Source: Thermotoga caldifontis AZM44c09
GTDB taxonomy: Bacteria; Thermotogota; Thermotogae; Thermotogales; DSM-5069
Direction of reading: 5' to 3'
Length of the DNA: 64,000 nucleotides
Assembly (NCBI RefSeq): GCF_000828655.1
Contig: NZ_AP014509.1
Location: 372,001 to 436,000 of the forward strand
In this document: one piece after another, positions 837 through 36,692 of the stretch
How positions within the stretch are numbered: the stretch's first letter is position 1
Layout: every line of letters starts with the position of its first letter
Notes under the pieces: model-generated
What the model was told of the DNA's origin: nothing
The model's input: only the letters and a program-made list of their open reading frames with translations
Databases searched by the model: none
Program-made: the position numbers and the translations under genes

Positions 837-2246
837 TCAACACACGCTGTTTTCCGAATATGGAACCGTCTCAAGTAATTCTACACCGAGCCACCGGAAC
901 ATCTCCACCAGGTGCTTCGCCCAGTGGCCTCGCACGACCGCGAAGTGGTGTTCCAGCCTGTGACACATCAGCGTGTTCACGAGGTCCAGAACTTGAAGTT
1001 TCCTGCCCGTATGGTCCTTCAGGTTGGAGAACCAGCCCCTGCTGCCGTCGAAGGAAGGTTTCACATCGCCGAGGAATTCGCCTTCGAAGACGAACGCTTT
1101 TGTTCCGTTCTCAGTCAATCTCAGAACGGTCGCGGGCATCGGATCAACCACCATCTCCGAAACCGGCGCCACCTCCAGCCAGCCTTTCTCAGGATCGTAA
1201 GGACCCGGATTGAAATGTTTCTTCATGAACAGGCGGTTCGAATAAGACTTCATACCAACACCGCAGTGCCAGAACAGCAGGCTCTCGTCTTTCAGATCCA
1301 GGCTCACAACGTCGAAGAGCATCGCTGGATGATTGCTGATGAGTTTCAAAACGAGCATGCTCAGGGCTCCAAGCACATCCCCTTCGCACGCCACGACGAA
1401 GCCTTCATCGTTGAGGTAACCCATCGAAGCGCACGGCACCATGGAAAGTTCGCTCCTGAACCTGGGCCAGCACAACAGTGCGATCGCTCCACACTTTTCA
1501 GTTTCACAGATTTCTCTGAGCGTTCTTATCAGAGATGCGGCTGGACCGAGCGTTCTTTCGGAGAGCGAATCGATGCTTTCATGCCTCCGTTTCAGGTCCG
1601 CAACGACATCTTCAACGTCTTTCTGTTTTTGCATGAGATCTTTCAGCGTCTCGAACGGTACTTCTTTGATGTGCACACCGAAGATCTCTCTGATCCTTTC
1701 CGCATCGTACGCCAGACTGTCGAATCCTGGCGCGTGACCTCCGATCTGAACGATCCTTTTATCTTTCAGATTCTTCAGGGCGCTCAGGGCCCTGATGGTC
1801 ATGGAAAATCTCTCACGAAAAAGTTTTTCCTCCGCGTAACCGTAGAACCATTTGAATTTTTTGTGCGGGGCCGCGAGCTTCATCAAACTCGCGTTGAGAT
1901 TCATTGCGCAGAAAGAGTTCTGCGGCAAGGGGCCTGAATCCGATTGCTCTGGGACGGACCACAGGCCTATGAATGCATCCGTCTGAGCCAGAGTTTGTAC
2001 CAGATAACCAGATGCGAACGAAACGTTCAGAATCAGAAGAAAGTCCACAGCCTGGCTTTCGATCTCTTCTTTAGCTTTCTTCGCCTCGTTCACATCGCTC
2101 AGCAGTTTCGAATAAGAAAACAGTTCGAAGCCGAGCTCTTCTGAAAGCTCTTTCAAACCTTCCACGCACCTTCTGTAGACACTTTCCTTGTCGCCTCGAA
2201 AGTTCGGTTGCATCAGGCCAACAAGTCCGACCTTTACTTTCACCAC
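837..2246 (-). CDS. L-fucose/L-arabinose isomerase-like protein, candidate sulfoquinovose isomerase
   Basis: A 469-residue protein with the two-part fold of the fucose/arabinose isomerase family, which interconverts aldoses and ketoses with a divalent metal. Family-like C-terminal signatures are visible: VACEGDVLGALSM (metal-ligand Glu region), SLDLKDESLLFWHCG (Asp and the HCG motif) and HHFAVVRGH near the end. It overlaps the end of the family 31 glycosidase by 7 bases, so it is translationally coupled to it. Inside an operon with a YihQ-like glycosidase, a transaldolase and a sulfolactate lyase, the inferred reaction is sulfoquinovose to 6-deoxy-6-sulfofructose. The family itself does not prove this; an isomerase for an ordinary hexose or pentose is the alternative. 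The first two codons are both GTG (2246 or 2243). Confidence 0.8.
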   Translation of the reverse strand: MVKVKVGLVGLMQPNFRGDKESVYRRCVEGLKELSEELGFELFSYSKLLSDVNEAKKAKEEIESQAVDFLLILNVSFASGYLVQTLAQTDAFIGLWSVPEQSDSGPLPQNSFCAMNLNASLMKLAAPHKKFKWFYGYAEEKLFRERFSMTIRALSALKNLKDKRIVQIGGHAPGFDSLAYDAERIREIFGVHIKEVPFETLKDLMQKQKDVEDVVADLKRRHESIDSLSERTLGPAASLIRTLREICETEKCGAIALLCWPRFRSELSMVPCASMGYLNDEGFVVACEGDVLGALSMLVLKLISNHPAMLFDVVSLDLKDESLLFWHCGVGMKSYSNRLFMKKHFNPGPYDPEKGWLEVAPVSEMVVDPMPATVLRLTENGTKAFVFEGEFLGDVKPSFDGSRGWFSNLKDHTGRKLQVLDLVNTLMCHRLEHHFAVVRGHWAKHLVEMFRWLGVELLETVPYSENSVC

Positions 2247-4210
2247 TTCATCTCACTCCCCGCCCTGATGAAGAACGGTGGTCGACCGATCGGCGCTTCG
2301 ACTTCGTGCACGCCACCGCGCAGCAGTTTACCGCTCCAGTAATGTATCCATTCGTCCTGCGGGAGATAGACCTGCCATCTATCCACGTTCGGTTTGAGCA
2401 CGGGCGCCACAAGGATGTCCCTGCCGAGCAAAAATTCGTACTGTTCCGTCCAGCACCTCTCTTCGTGTGGATAGTGGAGAAACAGGGGCCTGAAGAGTGG
2501 CAATCCTTTTTGCTGGTATTCCTTCAGGCACGCGAGGAAATAATTCTTCAATTTCACATGAAGATCCGTCATCTCGACGAAGTGCCTTATCGTTTCTTCG
2601 TCAGAATCGAACTGCCAGTTCTCGTCCGGCCAGTTACCTTCGTGCGTCCTCATGACTGGTTCGAACACGCTCAGCTCGGTCCACCTCATGAACAGCTCTT
2701 TCGTTCTGACCGTCCTGATCATTTCTGGAACGTTTTTCGCGAGCGTGGTGTAACCGCCTATGTCGGAATGTATCTGAGAAACTCCGCACATGGAAAGCGA
2801 CAGCTTTGCAGGTATCACGGAAGCTATACCATCGTCCACGGACCAGTTGACCAGCTGGTCTCCGTGCCAGTAGAGCGGGGTGAACCTGGAACTGTTCAGA
2901 TAACCCGAGCGCATGAAGAAGACCAGATCGGATCTTCCGCTCTCTTTCACAGCTTCATAATTCAACCTCGCCCATTCCACGGGGAACCTGTTGTGGAACG
3001 TCTCCGCCGGCTCACCGCTGGACAGGACGGCGTCGGTGGGGAGGTATTCTCCGTAGTCTGCCATCCAGCCGGACAGACCTATTCCGATCATGTTCGATTT
3101 GATGATGCCTTTGAGCCACTCGAACGCTTCAGGGTTCGTCACATCGACGATCGCCGCCGGGAAGGTCGTCACAACGATGTGGTATTCCTGTCCGTTCGAT
3201 CTTTTCACCAGATAGTTCTTCGCTGAAGCTTCCCTGTAAAGTGATCCTTCGAGTGCAAGAAAGGGATTGATGTAGCCCAGCGCCCTGATTCTTTGTGAGT
3301 GCAGATCCTCTATGGTTTTCGGCAGATTCGGATACAACTCTTCAGAGTAAACCCAGTTCCACATCAACTGTTTTCCAAAGCTCGTCACGCGTTTTCCTTC
3401 CCAGTCCTGGATCCACACGCCCGCCATCTTCAAACCGTTCTTTGACATCTTCTCGATCTTTTCGAGCATCGTTTTCGTTCCGCCCTGAATGCCGAGGATC
3501 GCACCATCCAGGACCCATTCTGGAAGGACGGGCTGTGTTCCCAGAAGCTCGCTCAACTTTCCAAAGAGGTCCGACCAGTCATCGCTTCTGTAAAGGATGA
3601 TCTCGATCGGCATCTGCCAGACGCATATTTCAAAAACGTCCGGTTTTCTGAAATCGAACTCCATGTACGAAGAACCGTTCACGATGCAGAAATAGCCTTT
3701 CGAACTGACGAACACTGGCTGTGGATAGTAGGTCGTGTACCAATCTCCCCCGGCATCGTAAGCCCAGTCCGCGAACAGTGTGATCAGGTCCTTCCTGTTG
3801 CGTCCCACTCCCTGTTCCGAAACCCAGATGGGTAGTTTCCTGCCCCTGAGGTTGAAGTGAGAGTACTGCTCCCCACAGCCGTAGACGAACTCGTTCTCCG
3901 ACGCGGGCAATCTGAACCAGAGCCTGTTGAAACCATCCTGGAGTGGTTCGAATCTCACGTGTAATTTTCCGTCTTTCTCTGTGAGACTCATTTTTATCGT
4001 TTCATCAAACAAAACAACGTTTTCGTTCACACTGAAACGTTTTGCAGGGTACTTGCAGAACAGTTCGTCTTCCATTCTGAAGTTCCCGTGCGACATCTGG
4101 TAAGTCGCCGTCCCGCGTCCGTAATGGATCAGGGGCCTTTCGAGAGTGTGTTCGAGGATCAAGTCTTTGTGCTTCACGCGAAAGCCGGCGCTCGAAGTCT
4201 CGATGTTCAT
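2240..4210 (-). CDS. yihQ: Glycoside hydrolase family 31, YihQ-like sulfoquinovosidase
   Basis: A 656-residue retaining alpha-glycosidase. Along its whole length it matches the remembered E. coli YihQ sequence, including WVSEQGVGRN, GIQGGT, TSFGK.-MWNW, GWMADYGEYLPTD, HSDIGGYTTL, RTHEGNWP and LLGRDILVAPV. The catalytic nucleophile is Asp385 (in GWMAD) and the acid/base is Asp451 (in HGDQ). Of the five residues reported to bind the SQ headgroup in E. coli, four are present: Gln242, Gln268, Trp284 and Tyr487. The fifth, Arg301 of E. coli, is Gln281 here (codon CAG). The family releases sulfoquinovose from sulfoquinovosyl glycerol or lipids. No signal peptide is visible, so it is cytoplasmic and works after import. 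ATG 4210 follows GGGAGGTGAC. Sulfoquinovosidase is favoured over plain alpha-glucosidase by overall similarity and neighbours. Confidence 0.85.
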   Translation of the reverse strand: MNIETSSAGFRVKHKDLILEHTLERPLIHYGRGTATYQMSHGNFRMEDELFCKYPAKRFSVNENVVLFDETIKMSLTEKDGKLHVRFEPLQDGFNRLWFRLPASENEFVYGCGEQYSHFNLRGRKLPIWVSEQGVGRNRKDLITLFADWAYDAGGDWYTTYYPQPVFVSSKGYFCIVNGSSYMEFDFRKPDVFEICVWQMPIEIILYRSDDWSDLFGKLSELLGTQPVLPEWVLDGAILGIQGGTKTMLEKIEKMSKNGLKMAGVWIQDWEGKRVTSFGKQLMWNWVYSEELYPNLPKTIEDLHSQRIRALGYINPFLALEGSLYREASAKNYLVKRSNGQEYHIVVTTFPAAIVDVTNPEAFEWLKGIIKSNMIGIGLSGWMADYGEYLPTDAVLSSGEPAETFHNRFPVEWARLNYEAVKESGRSDLVFFMRSGYLNSSRFTPLYWHGDQLVNWSVDDGIASVIPAKLSLSMCGVSQIHSDIGGYTTLAKNVPEMIRTVRTKELFMRWTELSVFEPVMRTHEGNWPDENWQFDSDEETIRHFVEMTDLHVKLKNYFLACLKEYQQKGLPLFRPLFLHYPHEERCWTEQYEFLLGRDILVAPVLKPNVDRWQVYLPQDEWIHYWSGKLLRGGVHEVEAPIGRPPFFIRAGSEMKW

Positions 4211-4214
4211 CGCG

Positions 4215-5633
4215 TCACCTCCCGGTTTCGAACACGACCGTCTTCAGTTCTGTGAGCTCTTCTATTGCGAACCTCATGCCTTCCCTTCCTATGCCGCTGT
4301 CTTTGTAACCACCATAGGGCATGAAGTCCGCCCTATACCTGGTGCCCTCGTTGATCAGCACGCCTCCGAACTGCAACTTTCTGATGGCCTCGAACGCTTC
4401 GAACAGATCGGAGGTGAATATCGAAGCCTGAAGACCGTAACGGGTCGAGTTCGCTTCGTCTATGGCCTCCTGCAACGTTTCGAAGCTGTTCACGGCGACA
4501 CCAGGTCCGAAGAGTTCCTCTCTCATGATCTTTGTCTTCCCGGGAACTTCGAGCAGGACCGTTGGCTCAACGAGCGTGTAGTTTCTTCGACCACCCGTTG
4601 CGAGTTTCGCGCCGGCCTGGATCGCTTCGTCGAACCACTCCACGATCCTCTGTGCGTTCTGCTCGTCTATCACGGGACCCATGTCCGTCGTTTCGAGTTT
4701 CGGATCACCGACCTTCAATTCTTTCACAGCCTTCAACAGAAGCTCCACGAACTCTGAAAAGACTTCCCTCTGAACGTAAACCCTCTGGACGGATATACAT
4801 ACCTGACCTGCGATGGAGTAACCTCCGGAAACCACGGCCTTAACAGCCTTTTGAAGGTCTGCACTCTTCGTGATTATGACGGGAGAGTTAGAACCAAGTT
4901 CCATCAGAATCTTCTTCAGTCCAGCGTTCTTCGCTATTTCCTCTCCAACGCCGACGCTCCCCGTGAAGCTCACAACACGGACCCTTCTGTCTCTGACCAG
5001 TTTCATTCCCACTCCACCACCCGGTCCGGTGAGAACACTAAGCGCCTGCGGCGGTAGCCCAGCTTCGAGCAACGTCTCACCCAAAAGGAGTGTGCTCAAA
5101 GGGGTTTTGGAAGCCGGCTTGACGATCACGGCGTTGCCTGCAGCGATGGCCGGACCGATCTTGTGAGCACACAGTGCCAGCGGTACGTTGAACGGTGTTA
5201 TCGCCACGACGACGCCGGCCGGTTCTCTCACGAAGTAACCAGTTTTGTGTTCTGAACCCTTTAGCGAGTCGAAGGGGATGGTTTCTCCGTGTATCCTCTT
5301 CGCCTCTTCACTGCACAGTTCGAACAGTTCGGCCGTCCTCACCACTTCGGCTCGTGCTTCCTTAACTGTCTTTCCAACCTCCATAACGATCGTGTCAGTG
5401 AACTTTGCCTCGTTCTGACGGATCAAATCCGCCGTGCGCTTCAGAATCGTGGATCTTTCATAGGCGGAGAGATTGCGCATCAACTGTGCACCTTCTACGG
5501 CACTTTCCAGGGCTCGCTCGACGTCTTCCTCTTCGGCCACGGGTACCGTATCGACCACACTACCGTCGTAGGGGAAAAGGACCTCTATCTTTCTGTCCCT
5601 GTCGATCCACTTTCCTGCTACAAGCATCTTCAT
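4215..5633 (-). CDS. NAD(P)-dependent aldehyde dehydrogenase, candidate sulfolactaldehyde dehydrogenase
   Basis: A 472-residue member of the aldehyde dehydrogenase superfamily, which oxidises an aldehyde to the acid through a cysteine thiohemiacetal. The catalytic Cys279 lies in GQVCIS, the general base Glu245 in MELGSNS, Asn148 in TPFNVP, and the nucleotide-binding FTGSVGVGEEI near 223-233. It resembles the GapN/lactaldehyde dehydrogenase branch, to which SLA dehydrogenases also belong. ATG 5633 is chosen because GGGGTGA sits the right distance upstream; the frame extends to 5654 but would then start inside the end of suyB. Placed between suyB and the sulfoquinovosidase gene, it most simply converts 3-sulfolactaldehyde to 3-sulfolactate. 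Lactaldehyde or glyceraldehyde phosphate are alternative substrates. Confidence 0.85.
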   Translation of the reverse strand: MKMLVAGKWIDRDRKIEVLFPYDGSVVDTVPVAEEEDVERALESAVEGAQLMRNLSAYERSTILKRTADLIRQNEAKFTDTIVMEVGKTVKEARAEVVRTAELFELCSEEAKRIHGETIPFDSLKGSEHKTGYFVREPAGVVVAITPFNVPLALCAHKIGPAIAAGNAVIVKPASKTPLSTLLLGETLLEAGLPPQALSVLTGPGGGVGMKLVRDRRVRVVSFTGSVGVGEEIAKNAGLKKILMELGSNSPVIITKSADLQKAVKAVVSGGYSIAGQVCISVQRVYVQREVFSEFVELLLKAVKELKVGDPKLETTDMGPVIDEQNAQRIVEWFDEAIQAGAKLATGGRRNYTLVEPTVLLEVPGKTKIMREELFGPGVAVNSFETLQEAIDEANSTRYGLQASIFTSDLFEAFEAIRKLQFGGVLINEGTRYRADFMPYGGYKDSGIGREGMRFAIEELTELKTVVFETGR

Positions 5634-5646
5634 GCGCTTCACCCCG

Positions 5647-6801
5647 CTACGCACTCGGATAGAGCTTGGTCGGCACGAACTCTCTGTGGTTCAGGATTTC
5701 AGCCTTCACGAATCTGCCACACGCAGTTTCAACGACCCTGCTGAACAATCTTTCCGTAGCTTCGTCCAAGGAGATCTTGAGCCGAAGCAGATCGGAGACG
5801 TCCACATCGATGTGCTCGGACATGGACTGCGCCGTCTTCGGATTGGCGGTGATCTTTATGACGGGCACGATCGGATTGCCTATGGGATTGCCCTGGCCGG
5901 TCGGGAACAGATGGATCGCGGCCCCTGCGGCTGCGAAGAGCGTCACCGCCTCGGCTGCAGCCGAAGAAGTGTTCATGAAGTAAAGGCCTTTTGCTGGTGG
6001 TCTTTCTGCCGGCTCGAGCACGCCGTCCACCATCGCGTTCCCTATCTTCTGCAAGTTACCGAGAGCTTTTTCTTCTATTGTGCTCAACCCTCCAGCTATG
6101 TTTCCCTGCGTCGGCTGTGAACCGAGCAGGTCCACGCCCTGAGATTTCACAAGCTGCTGGTACTCGTCGAACATCCGGATGAATTTCTGTCTCTCCTGTT
6201 CGGACTTTATCCTCTGGATCAAGATGTGCTCCGCACCGGTAAGTTCCGTCGTTTCACCGAACAGCACCGTGCCACCCATCTCCAGAAACCTTTCCGTGAA
6301 CCTGCCCACAACCCTGTTGGCACCCAGACCGGACGTCGTGTCGGACTCTCCACACTTCAAACTCACGATCAACTCTGACAGATCCACCGTTTCCCTCTTC
6401 AGGTTCGTTGCATCTTCCACGAACTTCACTGCCGTGCGCGCGGCTCTTTCGATCGTTCTGAGCTGTCCGAAACCTTCCACCCAAAAGGCTTCAACCCATT
6501 TTCCACTCTTCGCGATTTCTTCCGCCACCTTGCAAGTCCATTTCGGTTCTACCCCTATAACGACCACGGCTGCCACGTTCGGATTCAGGCCCGTCCCGAT
6601 CAGAGTTTTGAAGAACAGTTCCAGATCCTTTCCGAACTGCAATCTACCGTAAGGATGTGGGATCGCGAGAGTGCCGTTCACAACTTTTTCAACCGCCTCG
6701 GCCACCGCGTTTGATATGTCATCTATGGGAAGTATCAGAACGTAGTTTCTCACACCGACTGAACCATCGGGTCGTCTGTAGGCCAGTATTTCTCTCTTCA
6801 T
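5647..6801 (-). CDS. suyB: UxaA-family large subunit, SuyB-like sulfolactate sulfo-lyase
   Basis: A 384-residue protein of the altronate dehydratase/SuyB family. It begins with the family signature AYRRPDGSVGVRNYVLI and carries VSLKCGESDTTSGLGANRVV and FPTGQGNPIGNPIVPVIKI. SuyB is the catalytic subunit of (2R)-3-sulfolactate sulfo-lyase, which makes pyruvate and sulfite; UxaA instead dehydrates altronate. Two things favour SuyB here: the small SAF subunit is a separate gene just upstream, and the operon has no uronate isomerase or altronate oxidoreductase but does have sulfosugar-type genes. ATG 6801 follows GGTGAT with 4 bases between; the frame extends to 6816 but that start lacks spacing. 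Altronate or galactarate dehydratase is the alternative. Confidence 0.8.
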   Translation of the reverse strand: MKREILAYRRPDGSVGVRNYVLILPIDDISNAVAEAVEKVVNGTLAIPHPYGRLQFGKDLELFFKTLIGTGLNPNVAAVVVIGVEPKWTCKVAEEIAKSGKWVEAFWVEGFGQLRTIERAARTAVKFVEDATNLKRETVDLSELIVSLKCGESDTTSGLGANRVVGRFTERFLEMGGTVLFGETTELTGAEHILIQRIKSEQERQKFIRMFDEYQQLVKSQGVDLLGSQPTQGNIAGGLSTIEEKALGNLQKIGNAMVDGVLEPAERPPAKGLYFMNTSSAAAEAVTLFAAAGAAIHLFPTGQGNPIGNPIVPVIKITANPKTAQSMSEHIDVDVSDLLRLKISLDEATERLFSRVVETACGRFVKAEILNHREFVPTKLYPSA

Positions 6802-6806
6802 TCCGA

Positions 6807-7088
6807 TCACCCCCATCTCAAACTTCGAATGTTGTGTACGTGAACGTGCGCGCCCTTAGCGATGTTGTCAGTCGCCACGCCGATGATCTCGCCGTACTCG
6901 ATGATTTTCTCACCCTTCTGGATGTCCCTCAGCGCAATCTTGTGGCCCAGGGGGATGTCCTGAACCGCGTCGAGCTCGTAACTGAACTGCCCATCGACGG
7001 TCTTTCCGGAAACGTGTTCATTCTTCTTGATGTCTCTGACCGCCACGCCCACATGATCGCCGTCTCTGTGTACCAAGAAATCCACCAT
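6807..7088 (-). CDS. suyA: SAF-domain small subunit, SuyA-like sulfolactate sulfo-lyase
   Basis: A 93-residue SAF-domain protein with the signatures of the UxaA N-terminal domain and of SuyA: DHVGVAVRDI, PLGHKIALRDI, IIEYGEIIGVATDNI and AKGAHVHVHNIRSLRW. The ending VHNIRSLRW resembles remembered SuyA C-termini (KRW) more than UxaA. It pairs with the large subunit encoded 5 bases downstream. The gene starts directly at the end of the transaldolase gene, with GGAGGGTCCTGA ahead of ATG 7088. The inferred role is the small subunit of the lyase that cleaves the C-S bond of sulfolactate. Confidence 0.8.
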   Translation of the reverse strand: MVDFLVHRDGDHVGVAVRDIKKNEHVSGKTVDGQFSYELDAVQDIPLGHKIALRDIQKGEKIIEYGEIIGVATDNIAKGAHVHVHNIRSLRWG

Positions 7089-7760
7089 TCAGGACCCTCC
7101 CTTCCTGTAAAGCTCGTTCCAGGCGTTACAGAAGATGTCCAGACCCATCTGCGTGTATGGATTTTCGAAACATCTCTTGTAGACTTCCCAGGATGCCGTG
7201 ACGATGTCCGCACCGGCGAGGGCGGCGTCAACGATGTGCTTCGCAGATCTGATCGCAGCGACCAGGACTTTGGACGAGAAGTTGTAGTTTTTGATTATCT
7301 TCACGATCTTCGACACCAGCTCAGCGTCGAAATCGCCCCTCTCCTCTTTCCAGCCCACAAAAACGCTTATGTAATGGGCTCCGAGTCTCGCCGCCTGAAG
7401 TGCCTGGAACGGAGTGAAGATCAGCGTCATGTTCACTTTCACACCCTGTTTCGCCAAACGCGCGAGCGCCTCGAAGCCGGCCTCGGTGGCCGGCACCTTG
7501 ATGACGAAGTTTGGACTGAGATATGCCAGGCGTCTGGCTTCTTCGACTATCTCGTCGGCGGTTTTGAGGTGGGGGTTCACCTCAAGGCTGACGCTTATAT
7601 CGGTACCCTCAACGATCCTCTTGATTTCCTCTGCAAACCGTTCCACGGTCATGTTCGCGGCGAACAGATGTCTCGGATTCGTGGTGATCCCATCGATGTG
7701 CCATTTTTCGATGGCGTACTTTATCTCTTCCAGCTTCGCACTGTCCAGGAACAGTTTCAT
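7089..7760 (-). CDS. TalC/FSA-type transaldolase, candidate sulfofructose transaldolase
   Basis: A 223-residue small transaldolase with a class I aldolase TIM barrel. The Schiff-base lysine is Lys88 in FVIKVPAT; Asp6 in FLDSA and Asn28 in TTNPR are the other expected active-site residues. Compared with remembered E. coli FsaA and T. maritima TalC, the Arg of the FVGR phosphate-site motif is Trp137 (FVGW) and the Ser of AASIR is Ala169 (VAAIR). Those residues hold the phosphate end of fructose 6-phosphate, so their loss suggests a different C6 group. In this operon the likely reaction transfers dihydroxyacetone from 6-deoxy-6-sulfofructose to glyceraldehyde 3-phosphate, giving sulfolactaldehyde and fructose 6-phosphate. 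A simple sulfofructose aldolase is also possible. GGAGGTGA precedes ATG 7760. Confidence 0.85.
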   Translation of the reverse strand: MKLFLDSAKLEEIKYAIEKWHIDGITTNPRHLFAANMTVERFAEEIKRIVEGTDISVSLEVNPHLKTADEIVEEARRLAYLSPNFVIKVPATEAGFEALARLAKQGVKVNMTLIFTPFQALQAARLGAHYISVFVGWKEERGDFDAELVSKIVKIIKNYNFSSKVLVAAIRSAKHIVDAALAGADIVTASWEVYKRCFENPYTQMGLDIFCNAWNELYRKGGS

Positions 7761-7773
7761 CCGCTCACCTCCA

Positions 7774-8586
7774 TCAACCTTTCAGCCCTCCGCTCGATAG
7801 ACCCCTTATGATGTATTTCTGAAATCCCAGCGTGATGGCGAACACGGGAATGAGCATGATCGTCGCACCTACAGAAAGCTGTCCCCACAATGGCGCGTAT
7901 TGGCCCAGAAAGGCGTTCACAACGATAGGAGCGGTTTTTGATCTTGGCCCGCTCAAAACCAGAGCGTAGAGGAACTCGTTCCAGGACATCAGGAACGCGA
8001 AAACTGCTGCCACCACGATGCCGGGTGCTGCGAGCGGGAAGAATATCCTCCAGTAGATCGAAAAAGGTTTGCAACCGTCCACCCTTGCGGCTTCTTCGTA
8101 CTCTTTTGGTATGCTCGCGAAGAAGGGTAAGAGGAGCGCTATCACGTAGGGTAGATTGAAGCTTGTGTGTGCCACTGCAAGTCCCATCACCGTGTCTTTC
8201 AGCCCAAGGTTTCTGAAAAGGATGTAGAAAGGAAGGGCAAGGGTGATCTGAGGAATCATTCTCAGCATCAGGATAAGAAATATCAAGAACGTGTTTATTC
8301 TGAAACGGAACCTTACCAGTCCAAAGGAAGCCATCGAACCGAAGAACACCGACACGGCCATGGAACTGGTCGCGACGATCAGCGAGTTCTTCAGCGCGAG
8401 ACGAAAGTCTGAATTCTCAAACACTGCTCTGTAACTTTTCAACGTCGGTTTGAAGTAAAAAGGCCCCCTGGCCCAGATGTCTATGTCCCTTTTGAAGCTG
8501 TTCGTTATCACGACTCCTATCGGCACCAATTCGATGGCCACCAGGATCAGGCACAAAATCAGCCTCAGGGACTTTGCTTTTTTCAC
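7774..8586 (-). CDS. Sugar ABC transporter permease, MalG type
   Basis: A 270-residue inner-membrane protein of the CUT1 sugar importer family with about six membrane segments. The cytoplasmic EAA loop that contacts the ATPase is clear: PKEYEEAARVDGCKPFSIYW followed by RIFFPLAAPG. The end GLSSGGLKG is typical of MalG-type permeases. It starts with GTG in a GTGA overlap with the end of the first permease gene, after GGGGTGA. It works with the permease and binding protein encoded just upstream. No ATPase gene lies in the operon, so a shared MsmX-like ATPase elsewhere is likely. Context suggests uptake of sulfoquinovose or sulfoquinovosyl glycerol. Confidence 0.93.
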   Translation of the reverse strand: MKKAKSLRLILCLILVAIELVPIGVVITNSFKRDIDIWARGPFYFKPTLKSYRAVFENSDFRLALKNSLIVATSSMAVSVFFGSMASFGLVRFRFRINTFLIFLILMLRMIPQITLALPFYILFRNLGLKDTVMGLAVAHTSFNLPYVIALLLPFFASIPKEYEEAARVDGCKPFSIYWRIFFPLAAPGIVVAAVFAFLMSWNEFLYALVLSGPRSKTAPIVVNAFLGQYAPLWGQLSVGATIMLIPVFAITLGFQKYIIRGLSSGGLKG

Positions 8587-9479
8587 GACACTTCACCCCT
8601 GAAACTCACTCTGACCAGGTAGAACGAGAGTGCGAGAGAAACTGCCAGGAGGAAGACCGAAGCAGCCGAGGCGTAGGCCACCTTTCCGAATTCGAAGGCC
8701 TGCTTGTGGATGTACAGAGGAAGCAGGAGCGTCGCGTTCGCAGGTCCCCCATAGGTCATCACATACACTTCGGAGAAGATCCTCAGAGCGTCGATCATCC
8801 TCAAGAGCACCGCCATCGTCATCACCGGTCTCAAGAGCGGAAAGATGATGTGAAAGACCCGTTGCCAGAATTTCGCGCCGTCGATCTGTGCTGCTTCCAG
8901 ATACTCGCTCGGAAGTGAAGACAGGCCGGCGTAGATGATCATGAACATGAACGGCCACATGCGCCAGATATCCTGCAGCACGACAGTCACGAAGGCGTAT
9001 TTCGTGTCTGCGAGCCAGGCTTTCGGACCGAGAGAAATGGAGTTGAAAAAGCTCGCCAGAAGACCGTATCCAGGCTGCAGCATCAACCTCCAGGTCAATC
9101 CAGACACGACAGGCAGAATGAAGACAGGAAGCATGAGCAACGATCTGAGCAACCTACACAGGGGAAAATCTTTCAAGAAGAGAAGGGCCACCAGAAAACC
9201 AACAAACAGTTCGAGAGGGATCGCGAACGCCATGAAGCTCAGCTGAAGCTTCAGAGAATGCCAGAAAAGCTTGTCCGATACGACGTTAGAGTAGTTCGAG
9301 AAACCGACGAATTTCGGTGCGCGCAGATAGAGGAGTGTCCTGTCTGTGAAAGAGAGATACAGCGAGAAGATGACAGGATAGATCGAGACGGCGAAGATGA
9401 CGATTAGGGCCGGAAAAACAAACAAGAAGAGAGGGCCGAGCCCCCTCTTCTTAATAGCCGTACTTCTTGAGAAGCTCAT
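8583..9479 (-). CDS. Sugar ABC transporter permease, MalF type
   Basis: A 298-residue CUT1 permease with a cytoplasmic N-terminus (TAIKKRGLGPL), membrane segments from about residue 17, and the EAA loop LPSEYLEAAQIDGAKFWQRV followed by FHIIFPLLRP. The motif VYVMTYGGPANAT is typical of MalF-like subunits. As drawn, the gene starts at ATG 9479, overlapping the end of the binding-protein gene by 29 bases. A strong hairpin (9424-9452) covers codons 10-19, so an alternative start at the in-frame TTG beyond the hairpin cannot be excluded. It forms the transmembrane channel with the MalG-type subunit that follows. Confidence 0.9.
   Translation of the reverse strand: MSFSRSTAIKKRGLGPLFLFVFPALIVIFAVSIYPVIFSLYLSFTDRTLLYLRAPKFVGFSNYSNVVSDKLFWHSLKLQLSFMAFAIPLELFVGFLVALLFLKDFPLCRLLRSLLMLPVFILPVVSGLTWRLMLQPGYGLLASFFNSISLGPKAWLADTKYAFVTVVLQDIWRMWPFMFMIIYAGLSSLPSEYLEAAQIDGAKFWQRVFHIIFPLLRPVMTMAVLLRMIDALRIFSEVYVMTYGGPANATLLLPLYIHKQAFEFGKVAYASAASVFLLAVSLALSFYLVRVSFRGEVS
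9424..9452 (-). terminator. Hairpin with T-rich tail between binding-protein and permease genes (attenuator)
   Basis: Arms at 9424-9436 and 9440-9452 form a 13-pair stem with one A/C mismatch and a 3-base loop. On the minus strand the stem is followed by GTTTGTTTTTCC. It overlaps the stop codon of the binding-protein gene and the start of the permease frame. It looks like a partial terminator or 3' mRNA stabiliser that gives the binding protein more expression than the permeases. Confidence 0.65.
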
Positions 9480-10722
9480 TGATCTCTCTCGCCATCCTGT
9501 CCACAGCTTCCTCGGGAGTCATCCGGTTGGAGATGGCGTTCAGCCAGTGCGTCCTTATGATGCTCGAAACCTCAGGATAGTGTTCGAATCTGGGCCTTTC
9601 CACCGCGTACTGCAACGATCTGTAAATGCCGGCGAACCACGGTCTGTCTTTGAGAAATTCTGGATCCTTGAGCAAGGATTCGCGTGCGGGTGTGAGACCC
9701 TTCGGTATGAGCTTCTTTCCCGTCTCGATGGACATCCACCAGTAGGCGAACTCCGCAGCTGCCTGCTTCTCCTTTGCGGCCTTCGGTATTGCGACGATCC
9801 AGGCACCCCTGATCGCGGCCTTCCCCGCGGGACCGGCCGGTGGCTCTGTGTACTCTATCTTGCCGTACACCAGAGACTTTTCAGGGTTTTCGAGATCCGG
9901 TATGAGTGCAGGCCAGTTGAACATGGAAAAGACCTTTCCGCTGGAGAAGGCAGCCATCCTCTCCGCGTGTCCCATATCAAGGGCGCCTTCCGGGGCATAC
10001 TTGAGCAACTCTTTGTAGAAGTTGATCGCCTGTATGGCCTTGTCTTTGTCGAGGGCGACTTTGTAACCGGTCTCGTCAACCTGCAGGACCTTGGTGCCGA
10101 AACTTTCGAACATCCAAATGGCTTCGCAGGTCGCACCCTCGGTCGGTTTTGTGAACGGTGCCCAGCCGTATATGCCTTTCTTCGCCAGGAACTTCGACAT
10201 GTCCAGCAGTTCGTTCAGCGTCTGAGGAACACGCATCTCGTAACCGTACTCTGCTTTGAACTCATCTTTGTACTTTTCGATGATGTCTTTCCTCGTCAGC
10301 CAGACGTAGATGTTCGCGTTCACCGGTAAGCCGAGGAACACACCTTTCCACTGACCTGCAGCGAAAGCCAGAGGCATGATGTCGTTCATGTCTGGCCTGG
10401 GGTAGACCCTCGTCTCGGGCCATTGATCGAACGGCAACAGTAGCGGTCCGACCATCGGGATGTTGGGTTCATCCACGGCCACCAGATCGTAATCTGCGCT
10501 CTGTGCCGTGATGCTCATCAGGGTTTTTTGAAGCAACGTTCCGCTCGGAACCAGTTCGAGGTTCACTTTGATGCCAGTTTGCTTTTCAAAATCGGGAAGT
10601 CCAGCCTTCAGAGCTTGGGTCAGAGCATCGTCCCACAGAAGCACGTTGATCGTGGTCTTGTACACTGCTGAGAGTGAGAGAACACTTACTAGCGCGAGGC
10701 AGAATACCAGCAACCTCTTCAT
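9451..10722 (-). CDS. Extracellular sugar-binding protein of ABC importer (CUT1)
   Basis: A 423-residue substrate-binding protein of the family 1 extracellular solute-binding proteins. It has an N-terminal Sec signal (MKRLLVFCLALVSVLSLSA), then TTINVLLWDDALTQALK and GLPDFEKQTGIKVNLELVP, the usual start of the first lobe. Later motifs such as GLPVNANIYVWLTRKDI and AAAEFAYWWMSIETGKKLIP are typical. ATG 10722 with GGGGGAGTTGT upstream is chosen; the frame continues to 10806 but that part contains the promoter and operator. It is the first gene of the operon. By context it captures a sulfoquinovoside outside the membrane; the sugar cannot be read from the sequence. Confidence 0.92.
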   Translation of the reverse strand: MKRLLVFCLALVSVLSLSAVYKTTINVLLWDDALTQALKAGLPDFEKQTGIKVNLELVPSGTLLQKTLMSITAQSADYDLVAVDEPNIPMVGPLLLPFDQWPETRVYPRPDMNDIMPLAFAAGQWKGVFLGLPVNANIYVWLTRKDIIEKYKDEFKAEYGYEMRVPQTLNELLDMSKFLAKKGIYGWAPFTKPTEGATCEAIWMFESFGTKVLQVDETGYKVALDKDKAIQAINFYKELLKYAPEGALDMGHAERMAAFSSGKVFSMFNWPALIPDLENPEKSLVYGKIEYTEPPAGPAGKAAIRGAWIVAIPKAAKEKQAAAEFAYWWMSIETGKKLIPKGLTPARESLLKDPEFLKDRPWFAGIYRSLQYAVERPRFEHYPEVSSIIRTHWLNAISNRMTPEEAVDRMAREINELLKKYGY

Positions 10723-10737
10723 ACAACTCCCCCATGA

Positions 10738-10755
10738 TGTGGTAACGTTACCACA
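10738..10755. promoter_or_regulatory. LacI-type operator, perfect 18-bp palindrome
   Basis: TGTGGTAACGTTACCACA is a perfect inverted repeat with the central CG typical of LacI/GalR operators. It lies just downstream of the -10 box and 16 bases upstream of the binding-protein start, where a bound repressor would block transcription. The LacI gene at 1-824 is the obvious candidate regulator. Confidence 0.85.
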
Positions 10756-10756
10756 C

Positions 10757-10787
10757 ATATTAGAACGCAGTTTCCATTTTTTGTCAA
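10757..10787 (-). promoter_or_regulatory. Sigma-70-type promoter of the sulfoglycolysis-type operon
   Basis: On the minus strand TTGACA (10787-10782) is followed after 17 bases by TCTAAT (10764-10759); TAATAT at 10762-10757 is an overlapping alternative. The start point would fall on or next to the operator. Confidence 0.75.
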
Positions 10788-10797
10788 GATGAAACAC

Positions 10798-10828
10798 CAA
10801 AAACAAAGGGCCCCATCACGGGGCCCTT
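10798..10828 (-). terminator. Rho-independent terminator upstream of the operon
   Basis: AAGGGCCCC and GGGGCCCTT pair at 10806-10814 and 10820-10828 around a short loop. On the minus strand the stem is followed by TGTTTTTGG. It ends minus-strand transcripts coming from the symporter region and insulates the next operon, whose promoter lies immediately downstream. Confidence 0.75.
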
Positions 10829-35417: not shown

Positions 35418-36692
35418 ATGACGATAAAGCTCGCTTACGACAAGGATAAACACCTCGAGATCGAAATACCAAATCGAAACCTTTTGTCCATCGCTCAGGC
35501 ACGTTTCCCCCGTGCGGCTGTCGATCCTACAGCCGAGTTGAAGAGATCTCTTCTTAATCCGATCGGTTCGGCAAGGCTGAGCGAGATCGTCGATAGTCGA
35601 AGCAGGGTCGCCATCGTTGTGACGGACATGACGCGGTACGCCATGGATGAAATCGTGAGCGAACTTTTACTGGAAGAGCTCCACAGATCCGGTGTGAAAA
35701 AAGAGAACGTTTTCTTTTTGATCGCCCTCGGTACGCACAGACCTATGAGTCGTGAAGAGATCGAAGAAAAGCTCGGGAAAAGGATCGTCAGTGAGTACGC
35801 CGTGTACAACCACGATTGTCGAAACGATCTGGTCTATCTTGGAGAAAGTTCTGCAGGCTTTCCGATGAAAATCAACAAAAGGTTGATGGAAGCGGATGTG
35901 AAGATCACCGTTGGTGTGATCGAACCACATTTGTTCGCCGGCTACAGTGGTGGTGTGAAGACCATCTGCGTTGGTCTAGCCGGGATGGAGACCATAGGTG
36001 CCACGCACAGTTTGAGGGTGCTTTCAGATGCGAGGACCAGGCTCGGTGTCATAGAAAACAACATCTTCAGAGAGTTTTTGAACGAGATGGCTGAGAAGGT
36101 GAGGATCGATTTCACGGTCAACCTTGTGTTGAACGAGGAAAAACAGCTCGTTGCAGCGTTCTCGGGCCATCCCATAAAATCCTTCGAGACCGCTGTGAAA
36201 TTCACAAGATCGTGCGTGGAGGTAAAGGTACCGGCGGTTGCGGACGTCGTGATCTCCTGCCCAGGTTATCCGAAGAGTGTGAATCTTTATCAGGCCACGC
36301 GCGCCGCGAACTCCGTGGTCCTTGGTCCCAAGCCAGTTGTGAAAAAGGGTGGGATCATTCTCATACCCGCACGGTGTGAAGACGGTCTTGGGGACGACAG
36401 TTACTACAGGTTCATGTCCAGTTTCGACAGCTTCGCCAGTTTCAGAGAGCACGTATTCACACACGGCTTTGGCGTCGGGGAGCACAAATCTTACGTTCTC
36501 GCGAGGATTTTGTCTCACGCTTCGATCGTTATGAGCGATTGTGAGATAGAAGACGATGTTTTGAGAAGGATCTTCCTTTCGAAGGTTTCCACGCTTCAAC
36601 GAGCTGTGGATCGGATTTTGAGTGAGAATCCCAACGCGGAGTTCCTCGTGATACCGAACGGTGTGCACACGATACCCATACTGGAGGGATAA
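35418..36692 (+). CDS. LarA-type nickel-pincer 2-hydroxyacid racemase/epimerase
   Basis: A 424-residue member of the LarA superfamily. The residues known for LarA are present: His107 (ALGTHRPMS), His171 and the cofactor-binding Lys181 (PHLFAGYSGGVKT), and His197 (GATHSLR). These enzymes invert the C2 hydroxyl of lactate, malate, other 2-hydroxyacids or gluconate with the nickel-pincer nucleotide cofactor. The cofactor genes larB, larC and larE are not in the window. Together with the dehydrogenases around it, it may convert one stereoisomer of the imported acid to the one the pathway uses. Confidence 0.9.
   Translation: MTIKLAYDKDKHLEIEIPNRNLLSIAQARFPRAAVDPTAELKRSLLNPIGSARLSEIVDSRSRVAIVVTDMTRYAMDEIVSELLLEELHRSGVKKENVFFLIALGTHRPMSREEIEEKLGKRIVSEYAVYNHDCRNDLVYLGESSAGFPMKINKRLMEADVKITVGVIEPHLFAGYSGGVKTICVGLAGMETIGATHSLRVLSDARTRLGVIENNIFREFLNEMAEKVRIDFTVNLVLNEEKQLVAAFSGHPIKSFETAVKFTRSCVEVKVPAVADVVISCPGYPKSVNLYQATRAANSVVLGPKPVVKKGGIILIPARCEDGLGDDSYYRFMSSFDSFASFREHVFTHGFGVGEHKSYVLARILSHASIVMSDCEIEDDVLRRIFLSKVSTLQRAVDRILSENPNAEFLVIPNGVHTIPILEG

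Follow-up and report, generated by a model that had tools for sequence, protein, structure and literature searches.

The closest described relative of the enzyme studied here is the sulfofructose transaldolase (SF-TAL) of Bacillus megaterium, BmSF-TAL or SqvA (8bc2, 8bc3, 8bc4 and 8c4i). The passage on this enzyme in PMC11659671 names D6, E61 and K89 as catalytic residues and N111 and S133 as residues that orient the sugar. The same passage describes a WAR motif, attributed to Snow et al. 2023 and postulated to orient the sulfonate; the WAR motif of BmSF-TAL is therefore already known. In FSA, the putative phosphate-recognition region consists of Ser30, Arg134, Ser166 and Lys168 (PMC13259622). 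FSA also has a water network of Gln59, Thr109 and Tyr131, and swapping its organising residues interconverts aldolase and transaldolase, according to the account of Stellmacher 2015 given in PMC13259622. At the level of gene clusters, SuyAB was identified in Cupriavidus pinatubonensis (PMC12890257), and SuyAB is already described as part of the sulfo-TAL clusters of Thermotogae and Chloroflexi, a sign that the carbon of sulfoquinovose (SQ) may be used completely (PMC9594981).

We analysed a 64,000-nucleotide stretch of Thermotoga caldifontis AZM44c09 DNA (the window), in which an uninterrupted reading frame on the reverse strand (7089-7760) encodes a protein of 223 residues with the TalC fold. 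A sequence-only reading of this gene had claimed that the Arg and Ser of the phosphate site in TalC/FSA enzymes were replaced by Trp137, the last residue of an FVGW motif, and by Ala169, within a VAAIR motif that covers Ala168-Ala169-Ile170-Arg171. Alignment with the real sequences bears this out, and the FsaA and TalC motifs that it had cited for comparison were correct. Trp137, Ala169 and Arg171 correspond to Arg134, Ser166 and Lys168 of Escherichia coli FsaA; the three columns hold Arg (FVGR), Ser and Arg (GASFR) in E. coli TalB and Arg, Ser and Arg (AASIR) in Thermotoga maritima TalC (TM0295, 1vpx), and the first two hold Arg and Ser in Thermus thermophilus Tal. Thus the Arg/Ser/Arg phosphate site of the TalC type is absent from the window transaldolase in this alignment, and the WAR sulfonate-orienting motif is present in the form of Trp137, Ala169 and Arg171. 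The further suggestion that the pocket had been rebuilt holds for the Trp/Ala change; the pocket has not simply been stripped of its phosphate contacts, since the third phosphate-site residue, Arg171, is retained and residue 30 is Arg, where T. maritima TalC has Thr30.

The likeness to BmSF-TAL extends over the whole protein. The best PDB matches were the BmSF-TAL entries 8bc2, 8bc3 and 8bc4 (E about 1e-68, as compared with 1e-44 for T. maritima TalC), and the characterised enzyme shows FVGW and VAALR at the corresponding places. Asp6, Glu60, Lys88, Asn110 and Ser132 of the window protein match D6, E61, K89, N111 and S133 of BmSF-TAL, and the two share the catalytic Asp6/Glu/Lys/Phe set. An AlphaFold model of the window transaldolase (mean pLDDT 95.8) gave BmSF-TAL as its top Foldseek match, at 1.0 A over 217 columns and 50% identity, and T. 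maritima TalC at 1.8 A and 39% identity. The latter enzyme shares the fold, the catalytic residues and membership of a decamer-type family, but differs in its Arg/Ser/Arg phosphate site, in Thr30 and Leu31, and in its clade, and TalC-type genes have no SQ genes alongside. E. coli FsaA likewise has the fold and the Schiff-base lysine in common with the window enzyme but differs in its Gln59/Tyr131 aldolase pair and its Arg134/Ser166/Lys168 phosphate site.

In order to place these residues among relatives, we aligned 167 sequences, comprising a Thermotogota survey, loci of named genomes and three reference chains. The survey covered 103 genomes chosen without regard to the motif and carries the evidential weight. 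A further 80 loci came from an alignment-based contig scan and were picked by similarity; their uniform WAR is in part a product of selection, because the most similar loci were taken, and is not independent evidence. Fourteen of the 103 survey genomes hold a copy at 55-99% identity, in one case divided between two frames; the remaining matches lie at 45% identity or below. The split copy (L144; genome G062, contig C31, 84764-85418) is a WAR transaldolase interrupted by either a frameshift or a sequencing error. Across the 167 sequences the triad reads WAR in 94, WSR in one (from a Planctomycete), RSR in 61 and RSK, the FSA-like form, in 11. Within the W/A/R clade Trp is conserved in 95/95 and Ala in 94/95 proteins. 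The pair was also sought in transaldolases specific for fructose 6-phosphate, where its presence would have counted against a sulfonate role: it is absent from T. maritima TalC, T. thermophilus Tal, and E. coli TalB and FsaA, and neither Trp nor Ala occurs at these columns in any of the 72 RSR/RSK relatives.

Near-complete differences between WAR and RSR proteins fall at seven positions (7, 31, 64, which is an insertion, 85, 137, 139 and 169). His31, the Pro63-His64 insertion and Glu139 are specific to the WAR side. Of the 95 WAR proteins, 78 carry Arg or Lys and 15 carry Asn as residue 30, which in every RSR protein is Thr or Ser; with a basic residue there in most WAR proteins, the pocket keeps a positive charge. 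In a tree of 79 rows, built by a quick search with SH-aLRT support and no bootstrap, the WAR proteins form one side of a single branch (SH-aLRT 99), with BmSF-TAL among them.

These data bear directly on whether the window gene encodes a conventional pentose-phosphate-pathway transaldolase for fructose 6-phosphate in which the phosphate site has drifted. The shared fold and the 39% identity to T. maritima TalC would fit such an origin, as would the finding that this is the sole PF00923 (TAL/FSA-family) protein of the complete 2.01-Mb genome (G000). However, the window enzyme lies in the SF-TAL clade and outside the TalC clade, an SQ operon surrounds its gene, and in other Thermotogota families some genomes carry the TalC and SF-TAL types side by side. 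Judged from the sequences, the substitution at Trp/Ala does not look like drift, as both residues are fixed in one clade across several phyla. We therefore regard a drifted TalC as extremely unlikely.

The sequence-only reading had also allowed that the reaction might be a simple aldol cleavage, with dihydroxyacetone released from sulfofructose as FSA does with fructose 6-phosphate. The Pfam family is indeed shared with FSA, and weak aldolase activity is possible in transaldolases. The FSA-type Gln/Tyr pair that organises the catalytic water is, however, absent in the alignment, where the window transaldolase has Glu60 and Phe134, as do TalC, TalB and BmSF-TAL. All RSR proteins and, with few exceptions, the WAR proteins have equivalents of this Glu/Phe pair; in the RSK proteins the first column holds Gln, His or Lys and the second Tyr. 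Because Glu60 and Phe134 constitute the transaldolase pair, simple aldol cleavage is disfavoured and an aldolase seems very improbable.

The genes around the transaldolase point to its substrate, and all lie on the same (reverse) strand. An ABC sugar importer occupies 7774-10806, with permeases at 7774-8586 and 8583-9479 and a solute-binding protein at 9451-10806. On the other side, the start codon of a SuyA-like small subunit (6807-7088; 93 residues, SAF domain) directly follows the transaldolase stop codon, a layout like that of the 94-residue gene ahead of a SuyB homologue in C. pinatubonensis. The adjoining SuyB-like large subunit (5647-6816; 389 residues, Pfam GD_AH), a predicted (R)-sulfolactate sulfo-lyase, is 58% identical to the UxaA-family gene that lies beside hpsN and hpsO in the hps/suy-type cluster of C. 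pinatubonensis. This two-subunit UxaA-family pair resembles that of C. pinatubonensis and is predicted to be SuyAB on this likeness. Next come an aldehyde dehydrogenase (4215-5654), whose putative substrate would give it the role of the sulfolactaldehyde dehydrogenase SlaB, a GH31 sulfoquinovosidase of the YihQ type (2240-4210; profile PRK10426), a divergent homologue of the SQ isomerase SftI/SqvD with a fucose-isomerase fold (837-2246; Fucose_iso_C) and, as the last gene of the run at the left window edge, a LacI-type regulator (3-836). From the transaldolase to the isomerase, intergenic gaps or overlaps are about 13 bases or fewer. The locus carries the SQ gene set, with an isomerase (below its curated cut-off), a sulfoquinovosidase and an SLA-processing enzyme.

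The isomerase scored 156.9 bits against the SftI model NF048012, below the curated cut-off of 700, and its putative role is supported by operon conservation rather than by profile score. A match to the SftI profile occurs in 11/11 long Thermotogota WAR clusters. Furthermore, isomerase, GH31, aldehyde dehydrogenase, SuyB and SuyA are each present in 11/11 long Thermotogota WAR loci versus 0/20 RSR loci, with a Fisher p of about 1e-8 for every gene. Of the 51 long WAR loci from outside this phylum, 45 contain the isomerase or GH31, and the six that lack both indicate that WAR does not always accompany the SQ route.

A divergent isomerase would also be expected if the operon and enzyme served another 6-sulfo sugar, such as sulfofucose, and the GH31 protein offers a second hint in this direction, since the residue equivalent to YihQ R301, in the sulfonate pocket, is Gln. 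In contrast, the same protein reaches 856.8 bits with the YihQ model, for which the cut-off is 553, finds its best PDB matches in 8r56, a family 31 hydrolase, and in YihQ itself (5aed), and retains YihQ D405, D472, Q288, W304 and Y508, the catalytic residues included. The R301Q change was set aside as a sign of a different substrate because it is common among WAR-cluster sulfoquinovosidases, appearing in every GH31 read from a Thermotogota WAR cluster and in many from Bacillota. The published sulfofucose route, moreover, resembles the Entner-Doudoroff pathway and relies on a different set of enzymes (PMC12421959). Taken together, these observations make another sulfosugar quite improbable.

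We conclude that the window protein is very probably a sulfofructose transaldolase (class I, Schiff-base) of the SftT/SqvA family, encoded within an operon for sulfoquinovose, a sulfur-containing plant sugar. From the observed residues, clade, fold and operon conservation we infer the substrate, the kinetics, the role of Arg30 and the end products. Lys88 would form a Schiff base with 6-deoxy-6-sulfofructose, with Asp6 and Glu60 likely to provide acid-base chemistry; sulfolactaldehyde would be released, and fructose 6-phosphate would arise by transfer of the dihydroxyacetone unit to glyceraldehyde 3-phosphate. Trp137, Ala169 and Arg171 would orient the sulfonate in place of the Arg/Ser/Arg or Arg/Ser/Lys phosphate site, and Arg30 probably restores part of the lost charge. 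The earlier suggestion that the C6 pocket suits a sulfonate thus agrees with the position of the enzyme in the SF-TAL clade and with its operon. Importer, sulfoquinovosidase, isomerase, transaldolase, aldehyde dehydrogenase and SuyAB would act as one tight sulfoquinovose operon, and the last two enzymes are predicted to oxidise sulfolactaldehyde to sulfolactate and to split this into pyruvate and sulfite.

Compared with BmSF-TAL, which shares the WAR triad, FVGW, a fold within 1.0 A and the partner roles of SQ isomerase, GH31 and SLA dehydrogenase, the window enzyme belongs to a Thermotogota branch, its operon adds SuyAB and an ABC importer, and its isomerase is divergent. The window cluster does not differ in any essential way from the extended, SuyAB-containing sulfo-TAL clusters of Thermotogae and Chloroflexi, as Liu 2020 is presented in PMC9594981: the roles are equal, the phylum is the same, and it is one of them. 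Since SuyAB-bearing sulfo-TAL clusters have been published, the window enzyme is a member of a known family in a known type of cluster. The general family models tested match it only as fructose-6-phosphate aldolase/transaldolase, each below cut-off, and miss sulfosugar transaldolases. The pocket substitution noticed by eye, WAR versus RSR, is a dependable marker for these enzymes and helps to locate sulfoquinovose users in genomes. Fresher leads come from related loci, where one gene may encode a new type of sulfolactate racemase and where Asgard archaea carry sulfoquinovose genes.

As the only PF00923 protein in its genome, the SF transaldolase may also serve the pentose phosphate pathway. 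Such a dual role extends the best explanation, and confidence in the one does not exclude the other. In four other genomes (G002, G003, G006 and G010) the SF-TAL type is likewise the only PF00923 kind, and SqvA can hand its unit to erythrose 4-phosphate (PMC9594981). Two genomes of the same family (G008 and G009) lack both the TalC and SF-TAL types, however, and keep only a distant RSK-type protein, so the loss of TalC is tolerated without SF-TAL; the LacI regulator in the cluster also suggests inducible expression. We consider this second role somewhat unlikely. Most genomes of the window organism's family also lack canonical TalC.

The predicted end of the pathway raises a question of stereochemistry. 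The reported activity of SuyAB is towards (R)-sulfolactate, but the product of sulfoglycolysis is the S form, which SlcC/ComC invert elsewhere. The genome contains no member of the ComC family (PF02615). Seven Thermotogota SF-TAL clusters outside the window's family contain a LarA-family gene (PF09861) between suyB and the aldehyde dehydrogenase gene (L142, 11547-12818; also L138, L139, L140, L141, L143 and L144), and in two Chloroflexota WAR loci such a gene directly follows suyB (L060, 8734-10077; L069, 11435-12751). The seven Thermotogota genes form one clade (100/99) adjacent to the LarA genes of the Chloroflexota WAR loci. The closest solved relative of the cluster LarA is the malate racemase Mar2; malate corresponds to sulfolactate with a carboxylate in place of the sulfonate. 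We therefore suggest, from position and relationship, that the LarA-type gene adjoining suyB in two phyla encodes a candidate sulfolactate racemase. Against this, only three of the seven Thermotogota genomes with the cluster LarA gave a match for LarC, the protein that inserts nickel.

The cluster LarA gene is absent from the window's own SF-TAL cluster, where SuyAB itself or an unlinked enzyme would therefore have to handle the S form. A siroheme sulfite reductase (PF01077), sought as an explanation for the use of sulfite, was not found in the genome, which has one TauE-type exporter away from the cluster. Considered jointly, it is a tentative proposal that one anaerobic thermophile takes sulfoquinovose to pyruvate and sulfite with an SF transaldolase as its only transaldolase, and that a dedicated LarA-family racemase inverts S- to R-sulfolactate ahead of SuyAB in seven Thermotogota and two Chloroflexota clusters.

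The window does hold a LarA gene elsewhere (35418-36692), which was rejected as a sulfolactate racemase because it belongs to another clade and another gene neighbourhood. This homologue of a second type lies within a hydroxyacid cluster with an FAD-linked oxidase, a tripartite tricarboxylate-type transporter, 2-hydroxyacid dehydrogenases and a DapA-like aldolase.

WAR proteins were also found in four Asgard metagenome-assembled genomes (L070, 8629-14055; L073, 10001-10657 and 13686-15026; L059; L066). For two of these genes the contigs are 170 and 354 kb long, and Ras-family GTPases are encoded on them as well. On the 170-kb contig (L070), an MFS transporter, the transaldolase, an SftI-like isomerase and a YihQ-type GH31 follow one another in a row. 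A review of January 2026 records no characterised SQ pathway in archaea (PMC12890257).

A different arrangement is seen in L087 (9995-15895) and similarly in L084, L085, L098 and L119, where a WAR transaldolase occurs with a LarA-like protein of about 500 residues and neither an SQ isomerase nor a sulfoquinovosidase lies nearby. L087 additionally encodes a TIM-family protein and an NMT1-type ABC importer. Loci of this type possibly serve another sulfonate route.
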